The notes under the pieces: generated by a model
Seen by the model: only the letters and a program-made list of their open reading frames with translations
What the model was told of the DNA's origin: nothing
The model's database searches: none
Shown: positions 11,901 through 63,858 of the stretch, piece after piece
Numbering within the stretch: position 1 is the first letter of the stretch
How the letters are laid out: the number at the start of each line of letters is the position of its first letter
Made by a program: the position numbers and the translations under genes
NCBI RefSeq assembly: GCF_039555335.1
Contig: NC_092647.1
Span: forward strand, 7,067,459 to 7,131,458
DNA length: 64,000 nt
Reading direction: 5' to 3'
From: Amphiura filiformis
Taxonomy: Eukaryota; Echinodermata; Ophiuroidea; Amphilepidida; Amphiuridae

Positions 11901-14900
11901 GCAACATGTCATGTTTCCGCGGTATGGTAGTAACCATGTAACTCATTTCAAGTTGAGAGTAACGCCATGTTGGATTTCACTGTGCCAGATTAGATTAGTG
12001 CACACGATTCAAATCTGCCACTGTGAAATCCAACATGGCGTTACTCTCAACTAGTCTGTCTCAAACGAGACAGACTCTAACCGCTACAAAGAATAAGCTG
12101 GATACTGTGTCTTCATGTCAAGAGAGATAAAAATCTTTGAAATTCTTTATGCAGGAATTCCATGCAAATCTAATAGAGTACGTGATCTCAAAGATGGACG
12201 TAACCATTCAGTGTGCTTATATTTTGATATTTCTGATTTTTTTTCTGATTTATTAACTGTTCCTGGATCATGGGATTTACTGCTAAATTGCTATAAAACA
12301 TTTTCACAACCTTATACATGTAATTAATATTTAAATGTTCTTGAACAAAACCCAAAACCGTTTAGATTGCAAACCATGGCCAGGTGTGGCCGCTACCTGG
12401 CTTGATCTGCAACAACGTTTGTTTTAAGGACATGCACAGTCCTGAAGATGTTAGTATCAAGCCCAGGTTATACTTCATCCTGTTGTCAATTCACTCAGTA
12501 GACTGCAGCTGCCCCTGACTTAGGATGGGCGGCGGTGGGTTGAGCGCTAGCACCGGAATCCTCTCTCTCAAGCTGCAGATACTGTCATGACATCAAATGG
12601 ATTTTATGCTTCTCCATCTAAAAAAGATTTCTTCAAATATGTAGCCTGTTGAATGTCTCAAAAAATGCACCAGGCACAGACCAGCCAACCAAAGAATAGA
12701 TCAAGCACCAGTTAGCAGCTATAGATGAGTTGACTTCTGATGTCAATGCCTGGCAGTATGCGCACGCATCATGACAATTTCCATTGTGTTTTGCCTGGCA
12801 GTATGCGCGCGCATCATATTTTGCTAAGGGCTAGTGGTTTTAAAACTCCTGCCACATCACAATAAGGTTATTGAACAGTGTGGTGGTTACATGGGGTTCA
12901 CTCAAGCATATCGATATTACCAGTCCCTCTGCCTTTGTTGATAAATATTGAGGTCAACTCATCTATACTAGTACCATGGCAACATTTACAACATTTTAAA
13001 AACATATAAATTTGTGTACATCTCACAATCTCAAACAATACACACAATTCTCACCTTTACTATCCAGAGGCACACATATAAGTGACTTATTCCTGTGAGC
13101 TGGGCCATCACCTGTGTTAGCTAGTAAACAGATCCAGTCCCCTTGTAGGCCATTGGTTATCCACAGCTTGCCTCCGTTGATTACATAATCATCACCTTGC
13201 TTTACAGCTGTTGTTTTGATATCTGTCAAAGAAGATATCGAAAAAATAGTGAGATAGTGAGCAAGAAGAGAGAGGAGTGATAGGGGTGAGAGAGAGAGAG
13301 AAGGATGAGAGAGTGGGTGGGACCATTTTGTCAAATCCCCCCCCCCTTTGCCCACCCTCTGAAAAAGTGCTGGCTTTGCCACTGCGCCAGACTCAGACAT
13401 AACATTCTCTCTGCTGGTGACTTATAACCAAATGGGAGTCAAATTTGTCCAGTTTTAGCCATATAACTAAAAACTAAAAAAAACCTGCAGTGTACTTCTT
13501 AATATCATTATCAATTCATTGATCTTACAGGAAATGAACCAAGGAAGCATTTATATTTCTAAAGGTTTTGCGGTTCTTGAGTCAAGGCCAATAATTTATC
13601 AAAACAAGTTTTGGACATTTTCCCCCTCCTGAAGAAAAATCATACACATGTGGCGGAAATGACACCCATTATATCAAATCAAGCCTTGGGATCTCTTTTA
13701 TAGAACCCATACCATTCTTCTTGTGTGTCAGCTTTATTTGTCTAATATTTGAGTGAAAACACCATGGAGTAACCATCTGAAAATTGAGAGGTAGGAATAA
13801 TTTTTCTTGTGTTTGGATCAAAAGTTTAATCAATCACTATCTATCAAGCTGTACTCTACACAATGAATATGATACCCACAATAATGGAGGCATCTCTTCC
13901 ACCCTTCTATCAGGAGATAGGGTTTGTAGGTAATCCCACAGATGGAATAATGGAGGCATCTCTTCCACCCTTCTATCAGGAGATAGGGTTAGTAGGTAAT
14001 CCCACAGATGGAATAATGGAGGCATCTCTTCCACCCTTCTATCAGGAGATAGGGTTTGTAGGTAATCCCACAGATGGAATAATGGAGGCATCTCTTCCAC
14101 CCTTCTATCAGGAGATAGGGTTTGTAGGTAATCCCACAGATGGAATAATGGAGGCATCTCTTCCACCCTTCTATCAGGAGATAGGGTTTGTAGGTAATCC
14201 CACAGATGGAATAATGGAGGCATCTCTTCCACCCTTCTATCAGGAGATAGGGTTTGTAGGTAATCCCACAGATGGAATAATGGAGGCATCTCTTCCACCC
14301 TTCTATCAGGAGATAGGGTTTGTAGGTAATCCCACAGATGGAATAATGGAGGCATCTCTTCCACCCTTCTATCAGGAGATAGGGTTTGTAGGTAATCCCA
14401 CAGATGGAATAATGGAGGCATCTCTTCCACCCTTCTATCAGGAGATAGGGTTTGTAGGTAATCCCATAGATGGAATAATGGAGGCATCTCTTCCACCCTT
14501 CTATCAGGAGATAGGGTTTGTAGGTAATCCCACAGATGGAATAATGAAGGCATCTCTTCCACCCTTCTATCAGGAGATAGGGTTTGTAGGTAATCCCACA
14601 GATGGAATAATGGAGGCATCTCTTCCACCCTTCTATCAGGAGATAGATATGTGGCCATGTGTCTTGAACTCGCCCCATTTTGCGTTGCGCAGCCTTTTTG
14701 AGCTTATTTACATCTTCCGAGGTTTAAATTGACATAAAATTTTAAATATGCACTCCACCCTATACAAACTATACATTTCCTGAAAGGAAATTGCATGGGC
14801 AATCCAAATATGCCATTAAAAAAAATGTAGGGGGTATTGTTAAGTTGTCCAGACTGAAATTGTCAGCTAAAATTTAACTTTTTCATTTTTTATATTTCAA

Positions 14901-17900: not shown

Positions 17901-20900
17901 ACAAAAATTATCACTAAAAGTATTTGAAAATAGAACCAAATATAAATGCATCAACCGCCTGAAAAATGAATCGATCCTACCCGATGCGAACACATGCAAA
18001 ATCACTGCTGCACGTAGTACACAGAGTGCACATTTATACATAATCAATGCACTGCGTATACTTTTCTAACCACTTTTCTGATTGGCTGCTTTAATATACA
18101 TGTAGGAGTGTATGAATGATATATGAATTATAATTAGAGAGGGCGGTCCACCTGCTGTGTTCTAGCAGGATATCAAATATATAAATTCTCAGTTTGATCC
18201 GGGGGGCACTCACATAAATGGTCTGTATCGCATGACCAAAAAAAACAGTAAACAGGTGGTTTTTTTAAGGCAAGGCAAGTTACGTGTGTGACACATTTAG
18301 GGTCTAACAAACACTGATTTTCAAGTGTAAAGGTAATTTTCTGAAACTGAACAACTGGTATACTATAGGGTACCTTTTCAACTTCAAGTTTTCAAATTTT
18401 TGGTAATTACAAGTCCAAAAAGGATACATTTTTTCAATTTTTACTTGCCAAAAACTCATTAGACAAGCGGCTAGGGGACGCAGGAGTAACCTTGTCAATC
18501 AAATACTTCATCTATTGTGTCCAATACTTAATCCGATAAGTGATCGATGTATATCGATAATTTAGATCAAGATCACGATTTTAAGCTACGGCGGCGCGCT
18601 TTCATACTTTACCATGTTTACGAGGAGATTCAGCCAGGTACCTGGATTCAGCACTCAACAACAAGTTGTCATGACTTAATTTATTCTTCATGATTACGAT
18701 TTAAAAAAACAATAATAAAAATATAAACAAAAAAATGATAATATTATAAGAATATAAGGTATATATGATTTTTTTTTATTAAAGAAATTAAACATTTTTT
18801 TATCATTATCATAGGCCTAAATATGAATTCGTAACGTTATACATTATAAATATCCGCACGAACAGCATGACTATATATAGCTTGTCATAAAATGTAGGCC
18901 TAACTTGAATACAAATACCAATTCAATTTAGCAGAAAAATGTCATATTAAAATGCGCTTTGTGATTTTTTATTTGGTTAAAACTAAGCACTTTACTTACT
19001 TACTCTTACTCCGTCGACTCTTGCTGTCGGGCATCAATGATGGCTCGCCATAACCGCCTGTCCTGCATGCTGGTCTCAATTTCTGCAACTGTGTATCCTG
19101 TGTCTTGTTGAAGCAGGTCCACATAGGTCTTCTTGGGACGTCCTTTGGCTCGTCTTCCTTGGGTGGGCTTCCATGTAACCAGATCAGATGTAATCCTCCC
19201 TTTGGCTCTCTTACAGTGTCCCGCAAACCGTAGCCGTCTTGTGCTGATTTTTGAGGTCACAGGTGGAATGTCCCCATACAATTCCTTATTGGTCATATGC
19301 ATTTTCCAGCTCACATTTAGTGCTGATCTTAACATTCTTGTATAGCAGCCATCCATTGCTTTGCCAATTTTCTTGGTAATGGTCCAGGTTTCACAACCAT
19401 ACAGCAGGACGCTTTCTACAGTAGCTTGGAATAGGTGTGTTTTGAGGTGTCTGGGTAGAGACGATTTCCAAATATTATTGAGCTTGTTACAAGCTTTCCA
19501 TGCCATTGCCTTTCTTACTCTGATGTCTTGCTCAGTACTTCTGACCCATGACCCCAAGTACTTGAAGTCTTTTACTTCTTCCAGGAAGCTGCCATCCTCG
19601 GTTTGGATTTCAACATCTGTTGAATGGTTGTACACCATGAATTGTGTTTTCTTTGCATTCATGTGTAATCCTACACGGTGCAGCGCTTTTCTACGCTTAT
19701 GAGCAGTTCCTGTGCTTGGTTGGCAGTATCAGATAGTAGCGCAATGTCGCTCTGCTAAGTCAAGATCAGTTATGTTCAGTGGACCAACTCGTCGGCTTCT
19801 TCTAGGTTTTATTGTGAAGCCTAATCTCTCCTCCCTGCCGTCTATTGGAGATCTGAGGCAATAGTCTAGGACGATGATGAACAGATATGGTGCCAGCGTA
19901 TCACCTTGTAACACACCTGCTAAAATTTCAAATTCATCTGTGTCACCATCTGGGGTCGCCACTTTAGCCTCTGTACCTTGGTAGGTGTCTTCAATTGCAT
20001 TCACAATGATATCTGGGATGCCATAAGCTTTCAAGATCTTGATCATTTTCCTCTGTGGACGGTATCGAAAGCTTTTTGAAATCAATAAATGTTACCACTG
20101 CAGAGAGGTTCTTTTCTTCAATGCCCTCAATAATCCTTCTCAAGGCAAGAATCTGCTCAGTGGTCGATCTCTTTTCTCTAAAGCCACATTGATTCTGTCT
20201 GCCGAGTGGATTCAGGGCACAACTGGATTATGTTTTAATCAGGAAGAAGTGGAAAAATTGTGTAATTAATACACAAGCTTACAACTCTTTCGCAAGCACA
20301 GGTTCAGATCATAGGATAGTGACTGCAAACATCCGACTCAGTCTAAGAGCCAACAACAAATCACCTTCAAAGAGAGTGAAATATGATTGGGCTAAACTAG
20401 CAACAGACCCTGAACTTCAGGACAGGTATACTCTGGAGATTAAAACAGATATTCTGTTTTATCTGATGATAATTGTGCAGACCAAACACAAAAATATAAT
20501 AACCTGATTCAGGCCAACAAGGAGGCTGCTGAAAAGTAATGCCTAAACTGCCAAAGAAGCAAAGAAAAGCACTTTGCTTTGACTCAAGAGTTGAACAAGC
20601 TAGACAACACCTAACAGAAGTCAACAAGAGACACGCCAAAGAGAATACCAAAGATACTCATTTAGAATTTGAGCAGAGCAAGGATGAACTTGACCAGGCA
20701 TATGAAAGAGCAAATAGGGAGTTCATAGAGAACAAGTTGAAGGAATATGAAGAGGCCAATCTGAACCACAGACATAAACTAGCATGGGGTATCATCAATT
20801 GTGTTAGTGGTACATGTAGGAAAAAGGCAAGGAGTGGAAGACTAAAGGATGACAACAAAGAAGAAAGACTGAAGAAATGGCATGACCATTTCAAGAACCT

Positions 20901-23584
20901 ACTAGGGAATCCACCACAAGTGACAATGGAAAATGAGGATATACCAACTATATTTCATGAACTACCCATCAGAACAGATGCTTTTGATATGGAGGAATAC
21001 CAGAAAGCAAAGATGGCTATTAAGGAAGGCAAGAGTTATGGAGAAGATGGTATTCCACCAGAGGTGATCAAGAGATGCAATATTGACATAATCATACTTG
21101 ATTTTTGCAATCAAGTACTACTAAACCGACAAAAACCTAACCAGTGGTCCATCTTGAATCTCATCCCAGTACCTAAGAGCGGCGATCTCAGCCTAACAGC
21201 CAACTACAGGGGAATCAGCCTAAGCTCAATAGTTGCTAAAACATTCAACAGGATGCTCTTGAACAGGATCAGACCACACCTTGATGATAATAATAAGTCT
21301 CAAATTGTTAATACAAATAGGAAGGCGTCTTTTGAGTATAGGCCTAATACATATTTAGGCCTATTAGTATTATAGTTTTGCAATATTATTTTTGTTATTA
21401 TTTATATATTGTGTTATTTAATTTTGATTTATGTTCAATTATCCCAGCAAACACAAAACGTTTTCGAAGTTTTCGACATCATTCGCAAAAGGTTAGAAAA
21501 GGTTGCCAGAAAATGTTTAAATGTCGGGCTATATAAAGGGTATGTATATAAAGGGAATAAAACTTTTTCATAACATTCAAAAACATTTTTTGATAACTTA
21601 CTGCAAATATTCTCAAACATATCATTATTTAAGTGGTGACAAAATATTTGGCAAAAAATGTTTGCAGAAAATATTTTTCAATAACATTTTGAAAACATTT
21701 AAAAAATATTTTTGTAGTGTGTTTCCATACAAAACGTTTTAAAATGTTTTTATGACCTTTATTTAACTCGACATTTATTGTTATTAAAACGTTTTTACCA
21801 AAACCGAAACCCAAAAATATAGGCCTAACCTGTTTGAAACGTTTTAAAAACGTTTTGTGTTTGCCGGGATGGCCTTTCAGACCTTCACATTAAAATGTAG
21901 ATTACTTGCTAGCTTTATATTATAAATGGTCAATGATTTAATATAAAAGTTATTAAAAAATATTATCATTATTTATAACATTGTGATGATTTTTCATTAT
22001 TATTATAAATTTTTATTTCATCATTTCAAATTGTAATATTTTATAATTATTTAACTTTTATTCCATGCAGATTTATGCGCCCACGTTAAGGGCTGGGGTA
22101 TGAACGTTTGGACAGTATTTATTGTGGGACATTAGAGTCATTAGAGCACATCAGACATATCGAATTGCATTCTGAATACGAAGAATGCCATTCTGATATC
22201 AAATAATTTTGATTTTTTGAAATTCGCAATTTAATACACATTTTATGGCAAATCATTAAAAATTGATATTTTTGATATTTAACAGTAGTTACAGTACTTG
22301 AAGTAAACTTTATAAATCTGATGATTTATACTTAAAGTGTATGTAGGTGGGATGAAAAGCCGACGATCAATTGAAAATTTTGACCTTTCGTATTGAAGAT
22401 ATGGATTTTTTTTCCCAAAACACCAAAAAAATTAGGTCTTTTTGGGAAAAAATCCATATCTTCAATATGAAAGGTCAAAATTTTCGATTGACCGTCGGCT
22501 TTTCCTCCCTGCTACATACACTTTAAGAATATATCATTAGATTTATATAATTTACTTCGAGGACTGTTATATATCAAAATTTGAAAAATATCAAATTTTT
22601 ATAATTTGTCATAAAATTTGTATTATATTGTGATTGTCAAAAATGAAAATTATTTGATATCAGAAAGACATGCTTCAGATTCAGAATGCAATTCGATAGG
22701 TCTGAGGTGCTCTCATGTCCCACAAAAATACTGTCGAAACCCAATAAACGCTCATTTTAGATCCCTTAAACTTGGTCAATTTCGCACAGTGGTCCTCTGG
22801 GGATAATTGCCTATCGATTGGATTGACCATGGATATAAACGTATTGGTGATGTCATAAGCTTAACTTTGGTGGACAATAGAATAACCATTGATTGACAAG
22901 GTTACCCCTGCGTCCCCTAGCCGCTTGTCTCATTAGGGGTAAATTCTATATTTTAAAAGGGGCTAAATTTGCTGGTAGGGTAAAACTCGTTTAGGGGGTG
23001 TTACAAGAAAATTTGGTTAGGCATGCGTACACTAATGCTGGTTTCATACTACCCTGCCGCTTGCAGCTGAGCGGCGTGGCGCTACGGATTGCAAACAAAC
23101 GGACACAATAAAGGCTTGTCATTGGTTGAAACGCCCTGCCACTTGCCGCAGCGGCAAGCGGCAGGAAAGTATGCTGGACTGGATCTGGAGGCTTTATATT
23201 AAAGTCTTATTCAGATTTCATTTGACAGCTTAACCATCGCAGATACGCACGCGACGTCAAGCGTGTGCATTGGACCTTGTGCAAATAATACGCGCTGGAC
23301 GGCTAGCAGTACGCTTAATTTGTAAAAGGAAATCTGAATAAAACTTAATCATACTTTTTAGAAGTGGCCCCCTGTTAACTTTTTAAGCTTACCTTGTTCA
23401 AGGCCTGTCTAATTTCTGCGTGTTGTGCAGTAAAAATAGGCTCATCGCACAAGTCATCATAGTTGGTGTATGAAGTACTAGCACTAGTGGCAGATGCAGA
23501 GGATTTCAGCCGCACTATTTGCGAAAATCTGCTTGAAATCCGAGGAACAAATTGACGTGAAATGTTTATCAAGTGAGCTGCCAT
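5834..23584 (-). CDS. Mitochondrial acyl-CoA dehydrogenase, LCAD/IVD-type active site (gene span, 9 exons)
   Basis: Nine minus-strand exons join in perfect phase: 23393-23584, 17441-17561, 16746-16875, 15712-15818, 13055-13222, 8314-8487, 7624-7785, 6591-6750 and 5834-5924. Together they are 1305 nt, or 434 codons plus stop, the usual length for the family. The enzyme would oxidise an acyl-CoA to the 2-enoyl-CoA with FAD and pass electrons to ETF. An Arg/Ser-rich, acid-free N-terminus suggests mitochondrial import. Family signatures are [10 protein letters not shown] (residues 172-181), [13 protein letters not shown] (196-208) and QYWGGMGF. The MCAD-type catalytic Glu is missing near the C-terminus ([10 protein letters not shown], 408-417). 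Instead a Glu precedes the conserved Arg in QQER (Glu290), as in long-chain and isovaleryl-CoA dehydrogenases. Overall similarity looks closest to LCAD-like or so-called acyl-CoA dehydrogenase 6 proteins. Substrate chain length cannot be read from the sequence. No break was seen. Confidence 0.95.
6591..6750 (-). CDS. Acyl-CoA dehydrogenase exon 8 (family signature 2)
   Basis: Encodes [20 protein letters not shown] and then [20 protein letters not shown], which carries the Q-x-x-G-G-x-G-F signature. Acceptor TTTTCAG, donor GTGAGT. Confidence 0.95.
6880..7100. repeat. Dispersed repeat, copy 1
   Basis: Contains AACTATTTTGATTGGTTACA and GTATTTTGATTGGTTA with their inverse CCAATCAGA. A second copy lies at 30046-30330. 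Intronic, no coding capacity. Confidence 0.6.
7290..7540. repeat. MITE-like repeat, copy 1
   Basis: Shares TTAATATCAATATATTTTAT and GAGAATTGTCTTGTGA blocks with 60640-60880. Ends are roughly inverted (AGCGAGATCATAATCGG versus CCGCCGATTACGAGCT). Confidence 0.6.
7624..7785 (-). CDS. Acyl-CoA dehydrogenase exon 7
   Basis: Encodes [20 protein letters not shown] followed by [19 protein letters not shown], helices of the C-terminal domain with the conserved Q-R-x-A-F-G motif. Acceptor CCCACAG, donor GTAAGA. Confidence 0.95.
8314..8487 (-). CDS. Acyl-CoA dehydrogenase exon 6 (catalytic Glu region)
   Basis: Encodes [34 protein letters not shown] and [10 protein letters not shown]. The Glu of QQER (residue 290) sits at the position used as catalytic base in LCAD and IVD. 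Donor GTAAGT. Confidence 0.95.
8920..11429. mobile_element. Non-autonomous DNA transposon with inverted ends, composite
   Basis: The left end CAATTGAATACCTGAGTGGA and the right end TCCACTCAGGTATTCAATTG are inverse copies, each continuing into GAAGAA(G/A)GGCCCAACTCC. Inside, a second inverted pair lies at about 8940-9010 and 10830-11062 (AAAGGTGAACCTCATTGAAA and its inverse), and a short palindrome of the same motif lies at 11227-11270. The region fills most of intron 5 of the dehydrogenase gene. No intact transposase was found. A broken THAP-like stretch ([12 protein letters not shown] ... PSTICREYY at about 9380-9450, plus strand) is a weak hint at a P/Kolobok-type parent. Confidence 0.6.
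11953..12051. repeat. Short hairpin MITE
   Basis: GTTGAGAGTAACGCCATGTT and GGATTTCAC return as the exact inverse at 12021-12051 around a loop of about 40 bases. Confidence 0.8.
12052..13054. other. Intron 5 remainder
   Basis: No gene or clear repeat. The phrase CCTGGCAGTATGCGC(A/G)CGCATCAT is present twice (about 12749 and 12788). Confidence 0.4.
13055..13222 (-). CDS. Acyl-CoA dehydrogenase exon 5
   Basis: Encodes [20 protein letters not shown] and ITNG, part of the middle beta domain that covers the flavin. Acceptor TTTGACAG, donor GTGAGA. Confidence 0.95.
13881..14647. repeat. 66-bp minisatellite, main array (about 11.6 copies)
   Basis: Near-identical 66-bp units start every 66 bases from 13881 (ATAATGGAGGCATCTCTTCC ... 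CCCACAGATGGA). Because 66 is divisible by three, several frames stay open for 229-289 codons in both directions; these are artefacts of the repeat, not genes. Only a few point variants separate the units, so the array is young or homogenised. It lies in intron 4 of the dehydrogenase gene. Confidence 0.97.
14648..15487. mobile_element. MITE inserted inside the minisatellite
   Basis: Left end TATGTGGCCATGTGTCTTGA and right end TCAAAACACATGGCCATGTA are inverted copies (about 35 bp, continuing with ACTCGCC). The minisatellite unit is interrupted on the left at ...AGGAGATAGATATG and resumes on the right at TAGGTAATCCC, so the element landed within an existing array. No coding capacity. Confidence 0.8.
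15046..15077. promoter_or_regulatory. Overlapping nuclear-receptor DR1 motifs
   Basis: TGACCTTTGACCTTTGACC is, on the other strand, three AGGTCA-like half-sites each spaced by one base (DR1). A further TTTGACCT follows at 15070. DR1 is the classic site for HNF4 and PPAR/RXR-type receptors. It sits inside the MITE in an intron of a fatty-acid oxidation type gene. Function is inferred. Confidence 0.4.
15488..15700. repeat. 66-bp minisatellite, right fragment (about 3 copies)
   Basis: The same unit as at 13881 but a diverged subfamily (CTTTCACATTTCTATCAGG in place of CTTCCACCCTTCTATCAGG), with the last unit decaying. It ends about a dozen bases from the exon 4 splice donor. Confidence 0.9.
15712..15818 (-). 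CDS. Acyl-CoA dehydrogenase exon 4 (family signature 1)
   Basis: Encodes [17 protein letters not shown] and the FAD/substrate-binding signature [15 protein letters not shown]. Donor GTAAGT. A 66-bp minisatellite begins only about a dozen bases into the downstream intron. Confidence 0.95.
16215..16402 (-). repeat. tRNA-derived SINE-like repeat, copy 1
   Basis: Same body as 16519-16725 (GAGGTTAGGCTGCC ... ATGCATGCACG ... TTGGGTTAGGGTTA) but the tRNA-like head is truncated. Confidence 0.55.
16519..16725 (-). repeat. tRNA-derived SINE-like repeat, copy 2
   Basis: The minus strand shows a tRNA-like head with B-box GGTTCGAATCCCGGG and an A-box-like GGTAGCTACAGGTCGG. A body shared with the copy at 16215 follows, so the pair forms a near-tandem duplication in intron 3. 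Confidence 0.6.
16746..16875 (-). CDS. Acyl-CoA dehydrogenase exon 3
   Basis: Encodes [20 protein letters not shown] and then [16 protein letters not shown], the end of the N-terminal helical domain. The donor is GTATGT, cutting after GCAAA. Joining to exon 4 gives NFGSDE, matching the family pattern N-[FH]-G-[ST]-[DE]-E, so the GTATGT cut at 16745 is preferred over the GTATGC four bases further into the intron. Confidence 0.92.
17441..17561 (-). CDS. Acyl-CoA dehydrogenase exon 2
   Basis: Acceptor CTTTACAG and donor GTGAAT. Encodes [20 protein letters not shown] and the [12 protein letters not shown] strand of the N-terminal helical domain. Enters in phase 0 and leaves one base. Confidence 0.93.
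17562..18454. other. Intron 1, left part
   Basis: AT-rich sequence without recognised genes or elements. Confidence 0.4.
18455..18520. repeat. Inverted repeat arm (partner at 22880-22940)
   Basis: AGACAAGCGGCTAGGGGACG continuing to CCTTGTCAATC is the inverse of 22899-22938, with 2-3 mismatches. The two arms enclose the LINE and MITE cluster of intron 1. Confidence 0.6.
18990..20205 (-). mobile_element. LINE, 3' part of ORF2 (reverse transcriptase C-terminal half), degenerate
   Basis: Reading leftward from 20205, the frames give [20 protein letters not shown], a broken FDTV box, [19 protein letters not shown] and then a frame-shifted ITDLDLA(E/D)D catalytic box at about 19750. The typical LINE tail follows: [24 protein letters not shown] and RLRFAGHC. 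At least two 1-nt lesions interrupt it. The 3' end at about 18990-19013 is a short AAGT-type tandem tail, as in RTE-like elements. The 5' half is inverted next to it (20206-21300). Confidence 0.85.
20206..21300 (+). mobile_element. Inverted 5' half of the same LINE (endonuclease end and RT N-terminus)
   Basis: The plus strand gives the end of an APE-type endonuclease ([30 protein letters not shown]) and a linker. The RT N-terminus follows ([33 protein letters not shown]), ending at NRIRPHLDD near 21290. That is just where the minus-strand half begins (NQCGFRE), so the two pieces are one element with its 5' part flipped. Confidence 0.85.
21443..21868. repeat. MITE with AACGTTTT-rich ends
   Basis: Left end TCCCAGCAAACACAAAACGT and right end ACGTTTTGTGTTTGCCGGGA are inverse copies; the interior is rich in AAACATTTT/AAAACGTTT motifs. 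Confidence 0.75.
22092..22744. repeat. Large fold-back element (about 650 bp)
   Basis: Almost the whole segment is an imperfect palindrome centred near 22420. Matching pairs include GGACAGTATTTATTGTGGGAC with GTCCCACAAAAATACTGTCG, CGAATTGCATTCTGAAT with ATTCAGAATGCAATTCG, and AATCCATATCTTCAATA around the centre. No coding capacity. Confidence 0.85.
22880..22940. repeat. Inverted repeat arm (partner at 18455-18520)
   Basis: GATTGACAAGGTTACCCCTG and then CGTCCCCTAGCCGCTTGTCT, inverse of the left arm. Confidence 0.6.
23037..23175. repeat. MITE with GC-rich inverted ends
   Basis: Left GTTTCATACTACCCTGCCGC and right GCGGCAGGAAAGTATGC are inverse copies; in intron 1 close to the first exon of the dehydrogenase. 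Confidence 0.6.
23393..23584 (-). CDS. Acyl-CoA dehydrogenase exon 1 (start, targeting peptide)
   Basis: The ATG is at 23584 reading leftward ([11 protein letters not shown]). The first ~40 residues have Arg and Lys, many Ser and no acidic residue until the Asp-rich stretch NYDDLCDEP, so a mitochondrial presequence is likely. The exon is 64 codons, ends ...RQALNK at a GTAAGC donor and leaves phase 0. Possible 5' UTR exons were not identified. Confidence 0.9.
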
Positions 23585-24643: not shown

Positions 24644-24697
24644 ATGATGACTTCTTCTTGGCCAAAAATCATCTTATTTGGCGATTCCATAACTCAA
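24644..24697 (+). CDS. IAH1: IAH1 exon 1 (block I, catalytic Ser)
   Basis: MMTSSWPKIILFGDSITQ, ending at a GTAAGT donor in phase 0. In-frame TAA at 24638-24640. Confidence 0.95.
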
Positions 24698-27600
24698 GTA
24701 AGTATGGTAATCAAGTGATTGATTAGAGGAATTAAATGGTAGAACATTTTCATTGGAAAAGTTTTTTTAATTTTATATAATTGACTTCAGATTCAGATTG
24801 TTTCTAATAATGTCCACACATCAAGGTTCAAATGAAAAAGCATGATTGATTGATGGACTATGATGAAGTATTGGGTTATTTCAGTTGAAATCCATGTCAC
24901 CCTCTATGGGGGGGCAGCATCAAGAGTGAAAATAAGAGAGCTTGAACCAGGGGCCACTTTGGCAAAAAAAGTGGCCACTGGTTCATCAAAATTTGGAAAA
25001 ACCAGGGGCCATTTCCAATTACCAAGGGGCCAATAAAAATAAAGATGTGCTGGATGAGTTAAATAAGCAGTATTTGCTTGTAATTTGATAATTTTGGTTC
25101 ACTATCCAGGGGGCCAGTTTTGTGAGAAAAGTGTCCCCTGGTCAACTAAAATTGAGATGGAACCAGGGGCCATTTCAGAGTTTCTGGGGGCCAAACGGCT
25201 CCTGTCTCCCACTTAATTTCACCCCTGGGCAGGATACGTATAAGAAGCTGTGTGAAAGAAAACATGGATTTTGGGTGGATTTAAAGCTCTAGCAAAACGA
25301 GGATCCGCGATTAGGGTCTCAAAGCACTCATTTTACTGAAAGAAGGGATATTTTTTTTAAAGAACGATCCTCGCATAGGGTAGTTTTTAAAAATTACCCA
25401 ATTAATGGCCATTAGTGGTGACATATTTATCAAGTTATTCTGCACAAAAGAGTGCTTTCCGAAATATTTTACACACCAGACTTCAACAGACTTCATTTAA
25501 ATCAAATTGATAAAAAAAATTAAAAATCGCTGATTTAAATCAAATTTTTTACTAATTTGATTAATTATGGACGATTAATAATCATCTGCATTATCCTATT
25601 TTCGATTTTCTGTGGGATTTTAATTAATTTAACAACCCTTTGTAGGTTTTTTACCAGTTAGAATTTTTGTCAGTGGAAATTGCATTGATTTAGGGGGCTT
25701 CCATTTTCTTTGTTACAAGGAGGGTCATGAATATATCGGTGACTGAAATTTTTTATGATCCCCCTATCTTGGGTTGAAAATTTGTATGACCTCCCTTCTG
25801 CCCACACAGATTTCTTGTTGGAACTACAGATTGTGCACATATTTTGACTGTTAAGACAAAAGAATGTGAATGTTCTGTGTGGAAATTTTGAGTCCCAGCC
25901 TTAATAATTTTACAACTCCCCTATTTTTGGTGTAAAAAAATTAAGAACGACTGAACCTCCTATTTTTGGTATAGAAATTCTGTGACCCCCTGTTTTTCAT
26001 GATGCCTTTCTGAAGAAAATGACAGCCCCTGCTCTTAATATTTCCAAGTTTTGACATGTTCAAGACACCAATCAAGGTCCTGATGCCTTATGAAATTGTA
26101 ATTTATTTTATATAATTTTAAAGAAATTAATGATTGGTTTATTTACAAAATGTACAGTTCTCTTTTGGCGAAGGAGGATGGGGTGCTTTCATTGCTGATA
26201 AACTGCAGAGGTAAGATTGTTTGTTTTTCTGTTTGTTTGTTTTTTTGTTTGTTTGTTTCATTTTTGTCAGAGTTAATCATGCTCATAATGGGATATTACA
26301 TTTGAAACCCATACACCCCTATGGAAGACATAATCTTAATCTCCCACACAGGGGGTGTAGATTTCAAATGAAGTCACCCATTCAGGTAACCCCATTTGAA
26401 ATTCATACCCCCTGTGGGAGATTCAAGTCATGTCTTCCCTAGGGTGTTTATGGAAAAACCTATTGCCAATGTTCAAAGTAAGATGGGTCCTTGGGCCAAT
26501 TATAGCCTGTGATAATTACAGAGGGCCTGAAAATAAACAACCCTTCAGTGCCCACTATTCAGTACAGATGTAAAGCTGATTTCAGCATCAGTCAATGGTA
26601 TTACATTAATACTTATTGTTGATTTGGAAGTCTGAAGTCTTATAAAGTGTCACAAAATGAGGACCAGTATAACACATAATCCTAAATTTTAGTTCAGGCC
26701 TTGAAGTTGAACATTGATTATTAGGGCCACAGATTTCAAACCCAAAGGCTGTTCTATTAAACTGGCCCTCAAAGATTTTGGCTTATTTTGAACACTGATC
26801 ATTGTTATGTTTATTCCACACAATAAATCTACAGTTATGTACACTGGCGTAGCCTGGTTAATGTAAGATGTGAACTGTTGACCCCTAATTTCTTGGCCCA
26901 GTGTGCTCAGAATCTAAAAAGGAGGAGGGAAGGGTTCAGAGCAAACTTTTCAAATTTTTTTCATGCACTGTTATATATAGGCCTACTATTAACTTATGTA
27001 GCAACATAAACAGACAGAATGGGGGAACATGTACTTAGTTTCTTCACCATGCACAAGCAGTGCACACAGAAAAATACAGACAACAAGATGAAACATGGAA
27101 ACTAAATTGAATCACTGTGTGTTGTTATCTACATTTTTTTAATATATTTTAATATCAACTTTACAATTAATTTTAATTTAACTTTTATACCAATTTTACT
27201 GATCTTTTTATTGAAATTCTGCAAGTCGCCATTTTATACCAATTTGACACATTCTTTTCATAACAAATTTGCACCTTATATCAATTATTAGGTACATTTA
27301 TTTCATTCAAATTATACACTTTATAACAATTTTAGACATTCTTTTCATTACAATTCTACATTTTTACCAATTTTAACAAAATTTCATAAGAATTTTACAT
27401 ATTCTCTCTCATTTTTGGCAGAAAATGTGACGTAGTGAATCGTGGCCTTTCAGGATACAACACCAGCCTTGCCAAGTTAGCCTTACCAAGACTACTCCCT
27501 AAATCACAGATACCACAAGTATCAGTCCTTACCCTGTTTATGGGAGCTAATGATGCTGCACTTGAAGAATTGTACCCTCAGCAGTATATTTCAGTCAGTA

Positions 27601-30600
27601 GTTATGTAGCCAATATGAAGGTTGGTGTTGAGATTAGTATTCTGTTGGTTAATTTATTTTTTAATAGATGCACTCATCCTGTACATTATGACACTGTATT
27701 GAATCCAATGCAACCGCTGAATCAAAGTTACAAGTATTTGAATGAACTAAGGTCTAAAGTGACACTTTGGCTTATACAAGGAAAAAAGATTCTCATCGAG
27801 AGCACTTTATGACTTTGCACAGCCAATAATGGTGGTCACACAAAATATTGATGCAAGCAAAGGGACAGAGAAGAAAAAAGTGAAGGAAAAATTTACTGCT
27901 TCTAATAAAGCTTGATTGAAAACAAAATGTTGCCTATTTGGTGTGCTGGTTAGAATCTTTTGTCGCTTGTATAGGCCAAAGTACCGCTTTTAAAATGGGA
28001 CATTTTGTTTATTCAAATGCCTGTAACTTTGCTTCTAGAGGTTGCATTGGATTCAATACAGTGTCATGATGAGTAGGATAAAATTTAAAAAATTTATCTA
28101 TATGGTTTAGTTTTAACATTATGATTTTTTTTCAAGTGTTCGGATACTTTCCGGGCGCAGTGTACATTACAATAGCACTCAGTATATACTCAGTTGGTGG
28201 CATGTTTCATCTTGATTTGTATTCCAATGTTTGAATTCACAAAATTACAAGAATAAATAATTTTTCATTATTACAATATCAAAATTAATGTAGCAATAAT
28301 ATAGATTTTAGTGATTACTGTAAAACCCCGTCTACAAGCATATAGTGTGCTTCTGATGAAAGCTACATTAATCCAGTCGCCATTATGGAGTTTGAGCAAA
28401 TAAATTACGGATTCAAGCATATACAAAAAGTATTATTTTAAGACCGATCAATTGTATTGGTATATTAACGCTTGCTTTGAATTAATTAAGCTTTTATAAA
28501 AAACACTATATATGCTTGTAGACGGGGTTTTACGGTATATTGACATTCACTTCTCCTTTACCCCATAAAATTGACTTTTGTTTTTGCACATGAAGAAGTT
28601 TATTTTTCAAAAATCCAGAACTTATCATGCCCAGCTTGAGATACATATGCTTAGGAACCAGGGGCTTGGGGGGGTGCTCAGTCCCTCAATTATTTTGGTG
28701 TGGGCTGGAATACCTTTCAGCCCCACCCCCATAATTCAAGGTGAAGTTAAAAAATTGTGATTAGATATAGGGAAAATGGGTGTTTGTGACCTATATTTTG
28801 CAAAATTTTCTGACACTGAGGGTGGAAACCCCCCTCCAGGGTAGCGCACAAAATATTTGTCAATTCTTGCCCCCCCATGTTGAAAATCTTCCTAATCCTA
28901 AGCCAATGAGATATGTTTCCTGTACATGATATGAACAAAATTTTTGACAGCCTCACTACTCCTCCCTACCTCACCCCATAAAATTGAGAATTTAGCATCA
29001 ACTGAAACAATTCCAACTATGAAACAAACAGTGCTAATTATCATATTTATGTACTATTGACATGCAATGGGATGCAGTGGAAGTGCCAGGGGAGGGGGGA
29101 TCGGAAATCCTCTCAGTCTTGGGATTTGCTGCCCCTCCTAATTTCCCCCTCCAGTCAAAATGTTAGAAATCAGGAAAATATCCCCTTTGGGGGCAAAAAA
29201 AAAGTTGTTGGCAAATTTTCAGACCCCCCTAAAATGTATGGCCATCATTGCCATTCTGGGGACACCACTAATGGGAGGTTCACTCAATATGAGATGATAC
29301 AGGGTGATGAAACCATCTTCTACCCCTCTCTCACTCTTATTCTGAAGACCTGCTTTTGAAAGCCACATTGTTGGAAATCTGGGAAAAGAAGTGTTTCTCT
29401 CAATCATTCAGGTCACAAATAACACTTGTTCAGTGCCAATAAGGGTACCATGACAGGCCCTTGCTGACACTGCAAATTTCTCCCAGTTCTCCGTGGTTCA
29501 ATAGCTGCCTTGAAGCCATGTGCAACCCCCCCTCAAGGAACTGGAACAAGTCCCAAAACTTTAGAACTTTAAAATTTTCCCCAAGCATCAAAACAGTTTA
29601 ATAGAACACTAAATACCAAACATTTCAGTTTAAATTTACATTTTTTATCCACTACAAATATTAGTACCGGTATTATTTTAATTGCAGCATACCTATCAAA
29701 ATGAAAGTTGAGTGCCCATCCCAATGAGTGCTATTGTAATGATTTATTTTGCTTTGTATCTTTTTCTTTTAAATGATTGTAAAACTAAAACGGGTAAATA
29801 CAGGAAATGTGATATAGTAAATCGTGGATTCTCAGGATACAACTCAACACTTGGAAAAGTTGCACTTCTTAAGGTGATCCCTAAAACTGCCATTCCTGCA
29901 ATCACCATGGTAACAATCCTATTTGGAACCAATGATGCAACACTTGACAGTAGTAATGCAAAATATGTATCCAGTGATGACTTTTGCTTAAATATAAAGG
30001 TACACCAATTTGTTTGATATTTTAAAATAAAATTATCATTAACACCACATGGTCACTACCAGCCAAATTATTGGCCTCTAAGAACTATTTTGATTGGCTA
30101 CAAAGAGGTCTATATATATCACATATTGAGCTAATCAGAGAGGTGTTAAGAATGGTCAGTTGGGCTGAAGGAAATTAGGCAAAAAATTGCAAAGAGATCT
30201 ATTTTGATTGGTTATTCAGCATATCATTACATGTAATGAACCAATCAGAACCACTGTAAGAAAGGTAGTATTCAGCATATCATGTAATGAACCAATCAGA
30301 GCCACTGTAACTTAAGAAAGGTAGTAGTGCCCATGGGGTTAAGAAAGAGAAAATACATTTTTGCTTTTGCTCTATATACTGATTAGAAGCACATTTTTTG
30401 CATTTATGGAAACTGTCCTAAAACTTGCATCTTGTGGGTTTTTTTTTAACAAGGCAATGATAGACTACTTGCAAGAAGGCGGACTGGAGGCGAGTAAAAT
30501 TGTTCTCATCACTCCACCGCCTATTTATGGTGAAGGATGGAAGAAACATTGTCAGACCACTTATGGTAAGAAACATTAAACATCAGGATCGATTGCCGAA

Positions 30601-32990
30601 TAGGGTGCAACTCTACTAGTCTTATTACAAGACTGCCCTACCCCAACCATAACCCCTAACCCTGAACTCCGTAAATGAGGACTAATTAGAGGTTAAAGCC
30701 ACAATGGATGATTTCTGTCAAATTTTAATTTTGTTATTCTTTGCCAAAAGTTATTACTATAATGAACACGTATTACTTATTGGGAGAGAAATTAGACAAA
30801 ATAATGCAAGTTTTCTTATAAAAACTCAAATTTTACTTAAATGAAAGCACTTCAGGCTTAGTCTTTATTCACATGGTATTTTAGTACACCATTGGGCATT
30901 AAAATCATGCAAAAAATAGAAATTTGATAGAAATTGAAGGCGTTGCTGTGGAGCAAATCACACATGTCTGTATGGACTAGTTGTGATTTTGTTGTGGTTC
31001 AAATGAGTGAACAAATGCCTCAATATTTGTGATGTGTCATGTCAAAAGCAGACACTTTTGGGCAGGTTATCAATTTTAAGGTTTTTACATATCTTAAATA
31101 TAGAGATATTTTGCTCCACAACGCCGTTTTCCCCATAAAATCGGACATTCCTAAGCGAAGATATTGAGTTCGTAAGTTATGGTATTATAAAATTGGAAAT
31201 TGAGATATCGGCCTTTGAAAATATTATTGACAATGTTGAGAGTAGGAATTACCTTGAAAAATGTCTCAAAAATACCAGATGCCAGTTACAGACAATATTT
31301 TAACATTAATAACATCACAAATTCGCAACAAACCAAAATTGTGAAAAAATTACCCCGGGCAGAATTTTGGCTATATCTCCATTAACGATCCTGCCCAAAA
31401 GTGTCTGCTTTTGACATGACACATCACATTTTTGCCATTCAACTCAATCATATTCAGTCATATACCTCATTCATTAACATCAGGTGAATTGCCTTTTAAC
31501 ACAATTGAAATCCCAAATTAATGGCCAATCACTCATTTGCAATTGACATGACTTGTTCATTACCTCGTAATAAATGTTTGAAGAGATGCACTAGGCTTTT
31601 GTGTGATTTTGGCCCGATAATATGGTCCAGGACCATATGGAGCATGTACTTAAATTGAAAATATTTATAAGTCAAACATCCTCCTGTACCATATGGTGCA
31701 GGACCATAATGTGGCAATCTCTTATTGGTTATTTTGCATCATGAACATTTATGCATTTATGAATATTCAATTATTTTGATAAGATCAATACCAAACTATT
31801 TTGCAATGTCATTTTTACAACTTGTTGTTTTTTTTTGTGTGTGTCAAACAGGCGTAGCTCAAAATCGAACCAATGCCAACACAGGGTTATATGCCAAGGC
31901 ATGCTGTACAGTAGCAAAGGATCTTGGGATTGAGGTGCTTGATATATATACCATCATGCAACAGGAGCCAGTAAGTATATCATGGCTTTGACTTAATTTG
32001 CTCTCAATTCCACAGCAGAAGTACAGCATTGATATTTATATGTTATGACCCTTCACACCAGGTTTATGGAGGATGTTAGAAATTATAACTACTATACTAT
32101 GTAGTTGTGTTGGCTTATGAGTATCTGGAAAATACTAAGCAGATTGCCCCATGTTCACTGATAGGTTGGTAGCTCTGAAAAGAGTTGCAAAAAAGCAGAT
32201 TGACACTATCTACTGTAGATTGGTGGCCCTGAAAAGAGCCGTTGAAGGGAACTGCCAAATTGGTGGCCCTAAAAAGAGCCGTAGGCTGCACCTTGTCTAT
32301 GCAAATTATATGGTAAATATATGTAACAAAGTAGACTGCTGCAAAATAGGATAACATTTGCATATATCAGCATGTTTTATCTGATTAATCATATTTTTTT
32401 CAGTCATAAGGCTAAAGAAAAAAGAAAAATTAATGTTATGAGAAAAAAGAAAATTAACATTATGTCTCAAAGCCCTTGGCAGTTTGAAAAACAAATGCAG
32501 AATGCATTTTTTTAAAAAGATTTTTTTAATTTCAATTTTGAATTAAGATGTCTGATGTCATTTCTGAGTGGTCAAAAGTACACAGCCTAACATTTGCGCA
32601 ATCGAAGTACAAATATCAATTCTTAAACAATGCAATATTTCTCAGAATGTTTATGGCAAAAACCTAAAAAAAAAAAAAAAGGAAATAAAAATGAACTTGT
32701 TGTTCCAGCTGAAATGGACACGCTAATAAAAACGAACATGCGGGGGCCTTTGAGACATATACAATGTAGCATTTGTTTTACCCTTATTTGATTTTCTTTT
32801 TTTCTTCTTTTTGTCACAGAAGTGGGAAAGATATTTATTGGATGGCCTTCACTTGTCCCCGGATGGCAATCAATTTCTCGGCGAACAACTTTGGAAAATG
32901 CTAGAACCTAAGACAAGGGATTTGCCAATGCAGCTACCAGATTGGAAAGATGTTGATCCAAATAATCCAGAGGAAGCACTTTTAAAATAA
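24644..32990 (+). CDS. IAH1: SGNH/GDSL esterase, isoamyl acetate-hydrolysing esterase 1 family (gene span)
   Basis: Exons 24644-24697, 26158-26210, 27422-27620 (3a) or 29804-29999 (3b), 30454-30565, 31852-31970 and 32820-32990 join in phase to 235 codons with 3a or 234 with 3b (human IAH1 is about 248). The family hydrolyses small carboxylic esters. SGNH blocks are present: block I LFGDSITQ (nucleophile Ser15), block II NRG(L/F)SGYN with oxyanion Gly47, block III G(A/T)ND with Asn79, and block V DGLHLSPDG with Asp187 and His190. No signal peptide is seen, so a cytosolic enzyme is expected. An in-frame TAA lies two codons before the first ATG and fixes the start. Exon 3 is present twice; see the separate entries. 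Confidence 0.95.
24871..24907. repeat. Fold-back MITE family A, fragment
   Basis: GGGTTATTTCAGTTGAAATC and CACCCTCTATGGGGG match the left arm of the copy at 1228. IAH1 intron 1. Confidence 0.5.
26158..26210 (+). CDS. IAH1: IAH1 exon 2
   Basis: FSFGEGGWGAFIADKLQ plus two bases (AG) of an Arg codon. Acceptor TGTACAG, donor GTAAGA. Confidence 0.95.
26287..26460. repeat. Fold-back MITE family A, copy 3
   Basis: Contains CACCCCTATGGAAGACATAA, TCCCACACAGGGGGTGTAG and their inverse. IAH1 intron 2. Confidence 0.75.
27422..27620 (+). CDS. IAH1: IAH1 exon 3a (blocks II and III, version a)
   Basis: Encodes KCDVVNRGLSGYN, LPRLLPKSQIP, FMGANDAALEELYPQQY and ending YVANMK (66 codons plus the split Arg). 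Acceptor has a strong pyrimidine tract (TCTCTCATTTTTGGCAG). The donor GTTGGT is weak. Its GAND matches the common IAH1 form. Confidence 0.9.
28316..28538. repeat. MITE with 30-bp terminal inverted repeats
   Basis: TACTGTAAAACCCCGTCTAC and AAGCATATAGTG return inverted as CACTATATATGCTTGTAGAC and GGGGTTTTACGGTA. It lies between IAH1 exons 3a and 3b. Confidence 0.85.
29804..29999 (+). CDS. IAH1: IAH1 exon 3b (duplicate of 3a, candidate mutually exclusive exon)
   Basis: Encodes KCDIVNRGFSGYN, KVIPKTAIPAITM, LFGTNDATLDSS and ending CLNIK (65 codons plus the split Arg). Entry and exit phases are identical to 3a and all SGNH residues are kept, so it looks functional rather than decayed. Identity to 3a is roughly half by eye. 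Acceptor pyrimidine tract is weak; donor GTACAC. Confidence 0.85.
30046..30330. repeat. Dispersed repeat, copy 2 (see 6880)
   Basis: AACTATTTTGATTGGCTACA, TATTTTGATTGGTTATTCAG and GAACCAATCAGA match the copy at 6880-7100. A short internal segment (CAGCATATCAT ... CCAATCAGA) is duplicated. Confidence 0.6.
30454..30565 (+). CDS. IAH1: IAH1 exon 4
   Basis: AMIDYLQEGGLEASKIVLIT and PPPIYGEGWKKHCQTTY, matching the ILITPTP region of the family. Acceptor TTTAACAAG (ends AAG), donor GTAAGA. Confidence 0.92.
30826..30935. repeat. Dispersed repeat, copy 1 (see 63732)
   Basis: AAAGCACTTCAGGCTTAGTC, CACATGGTATTTTAGTACAC and GGGCATTAAAATCATGCAAA match 63732-63838. Confidence 0.65.
31029..31428. repeat. 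MITE with 39-bp inverted ends
   Basis: TGTGATGTGTCATGTCAAAA and GCAGACACTTTTGGGCAGG return inverted at 31390-31428. IAH1 intron 4. Confidence 0.8.
31852..31970 (+). CDS. IAH1: IAH1 exon 5
   Basis: GVAQNRTNANTGLYAKACCT and then KDLGIEVLDIYTIMQQEP. Acceptor TCAAACAG, donor GTAAGT. Confidence 0.95.
32165..32285 (-). repeat. Three histone-type 3' stem-loops in tandem (minus strand)
   Basis: The minus strand has three stem-loops at 32265-32280, 32225-32240 and 32171-32186, of the form GGCTCTTTTCAGGGCC followed by ACCAA and preceded by ACG or CAA. This is the arrangement of the metazoan replication-dependent histone mRNA 3' end. Stems are imperfect in two copies (GGCTCTTTTTAGGGCC, AACTCTTTTCAGAGCT). 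No histone coding sequence is nearby. IAH1 intron 5. Confidence 0.6.
32820..32990 (+). CDS. IAH1: IAH1 exon 6 (block V, Asp-His; C-terminus)
   Basis: KWERYLLDGLHLSPDGNQFL continuing to PDWKDVDPNNPEEALLK and TAA at 32988-32990. Contains the D-x-x-H of the catalytic triad. Confidence 0.95.
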   Translation, partial: KWERYLLDGLHLSPDGNQFLGEQLWKMLEPKTRDLPMQLPDWKDVDPNNPEEALLK

Positions 32991-44450: not shown

Positions 44451-45030
44451 TCGTGTCATTTGACACGATGCAGGAACGAAATAACTTCCGTGCTGGTGAA
44501 GAAGGAGGCTGATTGGTCCATGATGTGCTTGTCAAAATGATGAAGGGTAAGTTCTTCTAATTATAAAAAAAAGTCCCGGGAAAAAAGTACGCAAATGAAA
44601 TCCTATTCCCGCTATTTGTTTCTACCGATTCCTAAAATTATTTTATAGACAGGCCTATTCCGGAACTTTGATAATTTGCCAAAAATTGTTCTAAATAGGC
44701 ATGCTATTAAAATAAATGACTAAGAATTTTCTCCTTCCTTCCTCCCATTAAAGATAGAGTCGTTAATTAAATGGTTCCATACATCTGCTGCTGGTTCACA
44801 GCTGCAGCTAAAGTGGATATTTTATATTCTTGTTGAATTTTTATTTTGATGATAATAAAGTTTTATTTTGTTGCTGCGTTTATGGGATATAATGATTGTA
44901 CAGCATAGGTTAACGATATTTATTTAATTGCAGCCCATAATGCACACGCTATTTAGTATTATGTGTTACTACTAATAATATTGAAATTTCCCTGCACGGA
45001 ATAATCACACTCACACACATAAAAATCAAA

Positions 45031-45307
45031 ATGGCATTGGCATTAGTAAATGATACGGGCAAAATTATACATGAAGATATTCAGATAGAGTGCGAATATG
45101 AAGGTACACAAAAAGAGCCTAAAAACGGTATCGTTAAACAAAAGGTTTACGTCTATGATGAAAGCCAGGAAATGAAATGTTTGCAAACAGCCAATCCGAT
45201 CGTGATGGTGTTAGCTTGGACAGTGATGTTTGTGATGGTATTTTGTATTTTATTTTACGCTGTACGCAACACCAATTTGCTGAGCAAATACGTAGATTTC
45301 AACTCAG
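45031..45307 (+). CDS. Membrane-anchor first exon, version a
   Basis: Starts MALALVNDTGKII and has an acidic tail with VYVYDESQEMKCLQTANPI. One hydrophobic segment (about residues 57-78, VMVLAWTVMFVMVFCILFYA) precedes RNTNLLSKYVDFNS. It ends at a GTAAG donor leaving one base (phase 1). No signal peptide. Closely related to the exons at 48991 and 59024, sharing V-Y-D-(D/E)-S-(Q/E)-E-M-x-C-L-x-x-A-N-P and V-M-F-x-x-V-F-C-I-L-(F/Y)-Y. It can join 46496 to make a 117-residue protein, or in principle the Kunitz exon at 61834. Confidence 0.75.
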
Positions 45308-45839
45308 GTAAGATAACGTGCGAAAATGCACACTGATAAATGGATGGTATAACTGAAGATATAGCTGTAGACAATGGATAAATGTGTTGTCACATGCTTA
45401 AATTCGAAGATTGGTACATGGTGTTGTCTTTCCTTCAATGGTGTACCCCAATAATCAAGAGACAAATGCTGTCTTTCCGTTACTTGGGTGTCCCAATATC
45501 AAATTGACAGATAAGTTTTGTCGTTCCTTTACTTGGGTGTCAATGTTAAATTGCCAAATTGGTTTTGTGTCTTGTTTAGTTGCACCAATGTTCAACGCGA
45601 GAAATTAGTGTTGTCTTCCGTCAGTTTGGGTGCCCAAATGTTAAACGTGTGTTAAACTGAAAACCTAAAACGACAGAAATTTCTAATATGAGCCAGCAAG
45701 ATTATGAATGTTTTGAGTCATCCAGTATTCTGGACACACCAATATGAGTTTCAATAACCGAGTTTTCATCAGACTTGCATTGTGGTTTGGTCACGTGATG
45801 ATAATCCTCACCACATGATGTTTGATATCATTCCTCATG

Positions 45840-48238: not shown

Positions 48239-48990
48239 TGCATTACTTACCCTTTATTTCTTAAATCAAATTACTCAGTGCACATCACAATGTGCTCTAA
48301 GGTCTCACAAAAAATACTGTGCAAACGTCGCTATCCGATCCCTTAATATGATGCTTATAATATAATGTCCTGCACGACCACTGAAAATCATTGTTCTCTA
48401 GTACAGTTACAGTTATCCTGACTTTAATAAAAGCATGGTGAAGAACTGGCCTATATTATGTGGTGAATGAATAAAATGAATTATTATTCCCAATAGATGG
48501 GAAGAAACAATACAATCATCAATAACGAAATCCATATTTCATGATGACATTGAACCTGTTCACGTGCTGGAGTTTATTGAGATCAATTTTGCACATATCG
48601 CTGTAGTGCGAAAGATTATCGCTGGCCAATAGAGCGGCTTGTTATATTTTGTACCAAAAAGCACGATTCGGTTTATTGGTTAGGAGCATTCGAACATTGT
48701 TGCTTCTTCGTTGTGGCGATGAAACAGAAACTTAAGCTATAAAGCATAGTCTTTTACGATCACACACTGAAGTCATGACCGATGTATTTTCCCTGCACCT
48801 TTAAAACTTCAAACACTCAAAAAGTGATAATAGAGGACTTGCTTGGTATGCCTAATGGGATCAGCTGATGCGAATTGACAAAGCTCAATATTTACGGAGT
48901 TACCTATCTATTTATCTATCTGGTTGTGTATGATACGTCGTACTATCTATTAATGTTAGCAGTTCCAATACTACTACTTACACGGAAACC
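48239..48990. other. Upstream region of first exon b
   Basis: No gene seen. ATCAGCTGATGCG near 48862 recurs upstream of exon c near 58845, so a short promoter-proximal element may be conserved between the paralogous first exons. Confidence 0.35.
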
Positions 48991-49282
48991 ATGTCTTCAT
49001 CAGCAAATTATGTTGATATCACAAATAAATCAGAAAGGAAAATCATTGATGACAATGAAAGTGACGACGTTGCGGATGGCCTATTGGATGAAAATGGAAC
49101 AAATAATCGTCTAAGAATTGATAATGACGAGTATGTGTACGTGTACGACGATAGCCAAGAAATGCCATGCCTGACAATCGCTAATCCTATGACGTTGATT
49201 TTGGCTTGGTCTGTGATGTTCACAACGGTATTCTGTATATTGTATTATGGTATAATGAACAGCAGATTCTTGGCAAGACCAG
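48991..49282 (+). CDS. Membrane-anchor first exon, version b
   Basis: Starts MSSSANYVDITNKSERKIID, followed by a strongly acidic tail and VYDDSQEMPCLTIANP. A single membrane segment (TLILAWSVMFTTVFCILYYG) and IMNSRFLARP follow. It ends at a GTAAG donor leaving one base, the same phase as versions a and c. No matching downstream exon was recognised between here and version c, so it may splice to the Kunitz exon at 61834. Alternatively it reads on as a short protein ending in intronic stops. Confidence 0.75.
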
Positions 49283-50510
49283 GTAAGTGTCAAAAGACTT
49301 CAACGCTCTGCGTGCTAGCCATAGACTTCAGCATAAAGAGTCCCAGCTTTGAGATATTCCTCAAAATATCAAGAGCTATCTTAAGAACCACTGAACCAAT
49401 ACTAGGCTTATTTTTACTTATTTTAATGTACTTTTTATGCTGATTGAGAGAGCAGAAAAACTTAACCTCTTTCTGTTCACCGTTTTAGGCGTAATGTCGA
49501 AACGGTACCCAATGTCCAAATATCTGTGCCGAAAATTGCTTTCCCCCTTTTGGCCTGCCAAAATAATTCACCATCTGGGGGTTCACAAAATATTGCACCA
49601 CCCCTTAAGCTAATCGTAGATCCATGCTTTGCGCTCATTTTATTGATAATATTTTTTACCCCAGCACCTTTAATGTGTGTTGGAGAACCCTATACCATAG
49701 GTTTAATTATAACGTCAATGATTTTCATTTTGCTCTTGTAAAACTTTTGCAAGGTGTATTGACTCTTACTTGGTAGCTGAAATAGTTTGCCTTTCATATT
49801 AGGAGAAAATCCAGTGAAAATCGCATGTTCATAAAATAGTTAGCCGAAAAATCAATTTTGCCTATACTTTTGTACATAGTCTGCCCAATTTTGCGAGGGC
49901 GCGTCCCCCGGGGGCGCGTCCCAGGGCACGCGTGCAGATTATGATCGACGTAATAGCGACATCATGAGGGTATCATTTTGTACTTATGTTTGGTATCACT
50001 GGACGGAGAAGACCTATAGCTATACATTGGTACCAAATACAACAGTGTATGACGTTTATGATAAAAAAATAAGGGGTGGAACAATCACATCCCATGATCA
50101 TCCCTTCGAAGTTCGTGTTACAAAATATGGCTCAATATTAAAAAATTATAAAAGAATTGTTCAGCGACTTGTAGCTAGTTTGGCATATTGCAATCATATT
50201 GACCTTTGCTTGTTGGTGCAGTAGTATTGTGAAGGGACTGATGCCAGGAGTTACAAACTATAAAAGTATTCAGGACCACTGATTGTTACTCTAAAGTTCA
50301 AAAGTCAAATCAAATTGGATATGATTTCATATTTTATAGCCTCTTTGAGAATAATTCTGTTTTGAAACAGAAGAAGATGACATGAATGGAAGCAGCAGGT
50401 GTTATAGTTTCAAAATGTTTTGTAAAATGTTTTATCAAGTTAAGTCAATGTGCATGGAAGCTTCAATTTATCGAAACTTTGATATGTATAATTATCTAAC
50501 TGCTAATTTA
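49283..50510. other. Intronic or intergenic
   Basis: C-rich repeat fragment at 49540-49570; a (CCCGGGGGCGCGTCCC)-like palindrome near 49905. An open stretch after an acceptor at 50371 (EEDDMNGSSRCYSFKMFC) runs in a compatible phase but resembles no known domain. Confidence 0.35.
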
Positions 50511-60880: not shown

Positions 60881-60889
60881 AGTAAATCC

Positions 60890-62610: not shown

Positions 62611-62611
62611 G

Positions 62612-63838: not shown

Positions 63839-63858
63839 TTGCGCTTGTCTGGTTTCAG

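Follow-up and report, generated by a model that had tools for sequence, protein, structure and literature searches.

The IAH1-like gene and its surroundings

The 64,000-nt stretch of Amphiura filiformis DNA analyzed here (the window) contains an IAH1-like SGNH esterase gene at 24644-32990 on the forward strand, and exon 3 of this gene is present in two versions, 3a and 3b (Table 1). An in-frame TAA, read off the sequence, lies two codons 5' of the exon 1 ATG, and the boundaries of every intron in the gene are GT-AG. Both isoforms are open reading frames, with a length of 235 amino acids when 3a is used and 234 when 3b is used. In both, GDSIT (exon 1), NRG and GxND (exon 3), and DGLH (exon 6) lie in one frame; we take these motifs to be SGNH blocks I, II, III, and V, with Ser, Gly, Asn, and Asp/His in the catalytic roles. 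A first-pass annotation of this DNA had given coordinates and splice dinucleotides for 3a and 3b and had described each copy as encoding blocks II and III, with GLSGYN and GAND in one and GFSGYN and GTND in the other. Re-derivation returned the same boundaries and dinucleotides, and the motifs are present.

Table 1. Features of the IAH1-like gene, followed by other features of the window
Feature	Position	Strand	Remarks
Exon 1 (coding)	24644-24697	+	SGNH block I GDSIT
Exon 2	26158-26210	+	last codon has two bases at the exon end
Exon 3a	27422-27620	+	199 nt; block II NRGLSGYN, block III GAND
Intron 3a-3b	27621-29803	+	2183 nt; contains two fold-backs and an inverted pair with perfect 17-nt arms
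Fold-back element	27676-28079		3a-3b intron; begins about 55 nt 3' of the exon 3a donor
17-nt inverted pair, left arm	28165-28181	+	possible RNA-pairing element, a lead only
Fold-back element	28316-28537		3a-3b intron
17-nt inverted pair, right arm	29725-29741	+	ends about 60 nt 5' of exon 3b; a lead only
Exon 3b	29804-29999	+	196 nt; block II NRGFSGYN, block III GTND
Exon 4	30454-30565	+	
Fold-back element	31028-31428		another intron of the IAH1-like gene; 39-nt perfect arms
Exon 5	31852-31970	+	
Exon 6, coding part	32820-32990	+	block V DGLH; stop TAA 32988-32990
Acyl-CoA dehydrogenase middle-domain stretch	13026-13421	-	PF02770, 37.1 bits (cut-off 33.3)
Tandem array	13880-14646		66-nt unit, 11.6 copies, 99% matches; long open frames in both directions
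Transposable-element reverse-transcriptase frame	19732-20091	-	PF00078, 20.3 bits (cut-off 29.6, not reached)
Frame head to head with the IAH1-like gene	23393-23584	-	may be the first exon of the acyl-CoA dehydrogenase gene; no Pfam match
Frame with YVYD(E/D)SQEM motif	44941-45336	+	no Pfam match
Frame with YVYD(E/D)SQEM motif	48934-49443	+	no Pfam match
Transposable-element reverse-transcriptase frame	54969-56366	+	PF00078, 102.7 bits
tRNA match	57651-57712		
Kunitz domain frame	61830-62087		72.2 bits
Rfam Histone3 stem-loop	62702-62747	+	35.1 bits, barely over the gathering score of 34

The family assignment was based on Pfam and on solved structures. Lipase_GDSL_2 (PF13472, cut-off 32.9) matched the 3a isoform with 85.3 bits and the 3b isoform with 90.0 bits, and Lipase_GDSL (PF00657, cut-off 23.6) matched them with 80.5 and 75.1 bits, respectively. 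Among the 10 listed PDB sequences per isoform, a comparison set without animal IAH1, yeast IAH1 (PDB 3mil) was the best solved relative of both (84.8 bits for 3a and 83.5 bits for 3b); it aligns with the 3a isoform at 30% identity. The gene is a predicted IAH1-type SGNH/GDSL esterase.

Two of the other features were also inspected by eye. The two similar frames that share the YVYD(E/D)SQEM motif each contain a stretch resembling a membrane-spanning segment (LAWxVMF...FCILxY), and the two may encode a membrane protein in paralogous tandem copies. Near the Histone3 stem-loop, no histone-like frame was seen among the 25 listed frames of at least 60 amino acids in 57000-64000.

Relation of the two exon 3 copies

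Of 65 aligned residues, the peptides of 3a and 3b have 29 in common (45%), and one in-frame codon indel comes in addition; the 36 positions that differ agree with the earlier description of about half. The two exon lengths are exactly one codon apart and equal modulo 3. In tblastn searches of the 64-kb window, 3a matched 3b at E = 3e-18, with the next match at E of about 0.9, and the peptides of all seven exons revealed neither a third copy of exon 3 nor another duplicated IAH1 exon. The identity is unevenly distributed: 11 of 13 residues in the block II region, 6 of 16 in the following helix, 8 of 18 in the strand with block III, and 4 of 19 in the stretch after block III, the names of these parts being our reading of the alignment. 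In this alignment, similarity peaks around block II and is lowest after block III.

At the nucleotide level, 44% of the aligned positions differ, and the differences are distributed as 30/16/40 over codon positions 1/2/3 (third versus first two, Fisher P = 0.0007). The NG86 method gave dN of 0.48 and dS of 2.70, and maximum likelihood gave a dS of 4.64; pairwise dS is saturated by both methods, so dN/dS serves as a rough guide only. Read in this way, the pairwise ratio is not near 1, the value that the first-pass annotation had named as speaking against its claim that both copies were kept. Its further claim that the duplication is old accords with the residue identity, the nucleotide difference, and the saturated dS. 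With yeast IAH1 as an outgroup, 6 sites are matched by 3a alone and 9 by 3b alone, and these counts do not single out either copy as the older one.

The two exons were also compared by blastn together with 600 nt of flanking sequence on each side. One strong same-strand match (67% identical) starts 3 nt ahead of the exon and extends to roughly exon nucleotide 144, and over the last quarter of the exon the likeness between the copies is recognizable at the protein level only. No other same-strand DNA match in these flanked sequences was better than E = 0.3. An inverted 67-nt match (E = 4e-5) was found between the intron stretches 27903-27969 and 29582-29647, and the 17-nt inverted pair was recovered in the same comparison. 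The pair might instead have arisen in the assembly, as an artefact or by the joining of two alleles end to end; nothing was found in favour of this, and it was ruled out by the 44% nucleotide difference together with the flanks unmatched in the same orientation, and we give it a negligible chance.

Reading frame, splice sites, and constraint

Both copies are entered after two codon bases supplied by exon 2 and left at a codon end, so the equal entry and exit phases claimed for them are borne out by translation. Splicing 3a to 3b reads ...Asn-Met-Lys-Glu-Met-stop, and joining exon 2 to exon 4 reads ...Leu-Gln-Arg-Gln-stop-stop; the immediate stops that had been described for joint inclusion and for skipping both copies are therefore present, and both lie 5' of later exon junctions. 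The first-pass annotation had concluded from this that phase enforces mutual exclusion. The part of this conclusion that holds is that single inclusion alone is productive; phase does not enforce the choice. Phase filters the products, because double inclusion and skipping are useless, and does not direct splicing. The phase lock follows automatically from the copied exon having a length of 3n+1, which imposes it on any tandem copy. It is also not special, because 377 (60%) of 629 human mutually exclusive clusters likewise contain exons not divisible by three, and reads joining the exclusive exons were found for 83 of these 377, according to the available text of the source (PMC5740500). As a splicing case, the pair is ordinary.

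The same stops bear on another function for the pair, in which it mainly sets the expression level through unproductive joint inclusion or skipping and the isoform difference is secondary. Control of expression by unproductive splicing is known (PMC7764535, available text), and joint inclusion and skipping here both stop at once, upstream of later junctions. However, if an exon were retained solely to disrupt the frame, its block II and III residues could have been lost over a divergence this large, and both copies have them. We consider it highly unlikely that this is the main role of the pair; a role in expression level and a role in making isoforms are compatible.

Splice sites were scored with a simple score from a frequency table, of which only the ranking within the window is meaningful. 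Among all AGs in the window, the 3a acceptor is strong, at percentile 98.5; the 3b acceptor is weak, at the 55th, and so is that of the constitutive exon 2, at the 46th. The donors of 3a (94.9) and 3b (91.9) are the weakest of the six, the other four lying at 98.3 to 99.8, and weaker donors on both copies would suit a regulated choice. By eye, none of the donors resembles the U12 consensus, and no sign of mixed U2/U12 splice-site classes was seen in this inspection. AG-free zones were compared as a sign of distant branch points. Before 3b, 75 nt are free of AG, more than at any of the other five acceptors, but this is close to the 68 and 64 nt of the constitutive exons 5 and 4, and the comparison gave no clear sign of a distant branch point. 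Crowding of donor and branch point does not account for exclusion, given the 2183 nt between the two copies.

The 17-nt inverted pair in this intron was considered as a possible element for RNA pairing, as in exclusion by competing docking and selector structures. After masking of the fold-back elements, 2 of 2000 shuffles of the intron contained such a pair, and the 17-mer was not found elsewhere in the 64-kb window at up to 3 mismatches. An inverted pair of that length is, however, present in 23 of 57 unmasked 2.2-kb pieces of the window, and because pairs this long are common in this repeat-rich window, its presence does not prove RNA-directed choice. RNA folding around 3b gave no unusual signal (z 0.27). 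The pair may be a repeat relic.

The low acceptor and donor scores of 3b would be in keeping with one copy, more likely 3b, being a dying or dead exon, with the other alone spliced in. Against this, 3b is open throughout, differs from 3a by a single codon in length, and retains its AG and GT. It also fits the esterase family as well as 3a, as measured with a profile that contains no sequence from the window. Scans with the two isoforms alone returned no relatives in the prokaryote or the viral set; with yeast IAH1 added, the prokaryote scan returned 12 distant bacterial relatives, and all 12 were taken into the profile together with yeast IAH1. The 3a isoform scored 91.7 bits and the 3b isoform 92.1 bits.

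Neutral evolution of each copy was then simulated with substitutions only, no indels, and all rates equal. At the observed divergence, none of 300 open simulations from each copy reached either isoform score; the means were 59.9 and 60.4 bits and the best value in the 2 x 300 was 78.1, with 5331 and 3147 tries needed to obtain the two sets. Of 5000 runs started from each copy at this divergence, none for 3a and one for 3b ended in an open sequence with 29 or more identities. When a smaller share of sites drifted, the score of the other copy was reached in 0/96 and 0/146 open simulations at 30% of sites, 0/148 and 1/260 at 20%, 8/359 and 10/507 at 10%, and 45/564 and 91/698 at 5%. Long free drift of either copy is therefore unlikely, and both 3a and 3b look to be under protein-level constraint. 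A recent loss of one copy, with about 5% of sites drifted, may be compatible with these values, and overall we think it unlikely that either copy is dead or dying.

Two predicted esterase forms and comparison with known systems

The arrangement is, with good probability, an ancient tandem duplication of exon 3 within a single IAH1-like gene, kept as a mutually exclusive pair; this judgment is made from genomic sequence. Each mature mRNA would carry either 3a or 3b, giving two forms of the esterase that would share the catalytic Ser and the Asp/His encoded by exons 1 and 6 and would differ in the segment holding blocks II and III and the residues that follow block III. If an mRNA contained both copies, or neither, translation would meet a stop no more than two or three codons on, and nonsense-mediated decay of that mRNA is to be expected. 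We infer that both copies are used in RNA, that decay clears the remaining products, and that substrate or regulation distinguishes the isoforms, for which the first-pass annotation had envisaged different substrate pockets. This one gene is probably able to produce two versions of the esterase.

A more specific version of this interpretation is that, by exchanging the segment with the oxyanion hole together with the residues after block III, one gene supplies different tissues with two esterases of different substrates, the choice being directed by pairing of the 17-nt inverted elements; we give this combination only a slim chance. To our knowledge, mammalian IAH1 has no settled physiological substrate. 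A lineage that has retained an old doubling of the exon with the oxyanion-hole residues would offer a swap experiment made by nature on what this region determines.

A duplicated exon 3 in IAH1 was not found in the open-licence literature searched by title and abstract opening, a search with subscription papers mostly and annotations wholly outside it. Human IAH1 has been linked to an AP event, which we read as an alternative promoter and not as exclusive exons (PMC9712015, available text). IAH1 is absent from the accessible main text of a study of tandem duplicated exon events in humans (PMC9741552), and reading-frame terms were not found in the accessible part of PMC9013439. Mouse Iah1 knockouts are the subject of PMC7224509, as far as its available text goes.

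Related arrangements are described in the available portions of four papers. In OGDH, exons 4a and 4b are likewise an ancient duplicated enzyme exon in exclusive use; exclusion there is achieved by distant branch points and the intron is short in birds and mammals, whereas the intron here is 2183 nt (PMC7969005). Exon 10 of the oyster alternative oxidase is also a duplicated invertebrate enzyme exon with two diverged copies, but it is terminal, carries a stop of its own, and is used in a stress-dependent way, in contrast to the internal and phase-locked pair described here (PMC5589949). In C. elegans coq-2, the mutually exclusive exons 6a and 6e alter the enzyme core, and the choice between them changes the substrate of the enzyme; the enzyme is a different one, and genetics stands behind that case where sequence stands behind this one (PMC8659336). 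Human CYP4F3A and CYP4F3B, which use exon 4 or exon 3, resemble the present gene in that one enzyme gene has alternative exons for one stretch. The enzyme is unrelated, and Km and tissue use were measured there, whereas the present pair is known from its DNA; the swapped region of CYP4F3 is 27% identical and is tied to substrate preference, compared with 45% (29/65) for exons 3a and 3b (PMC12380495). A duplicated, interchangeable exon is a well-known kind of arrangement, and this gene is a further case.
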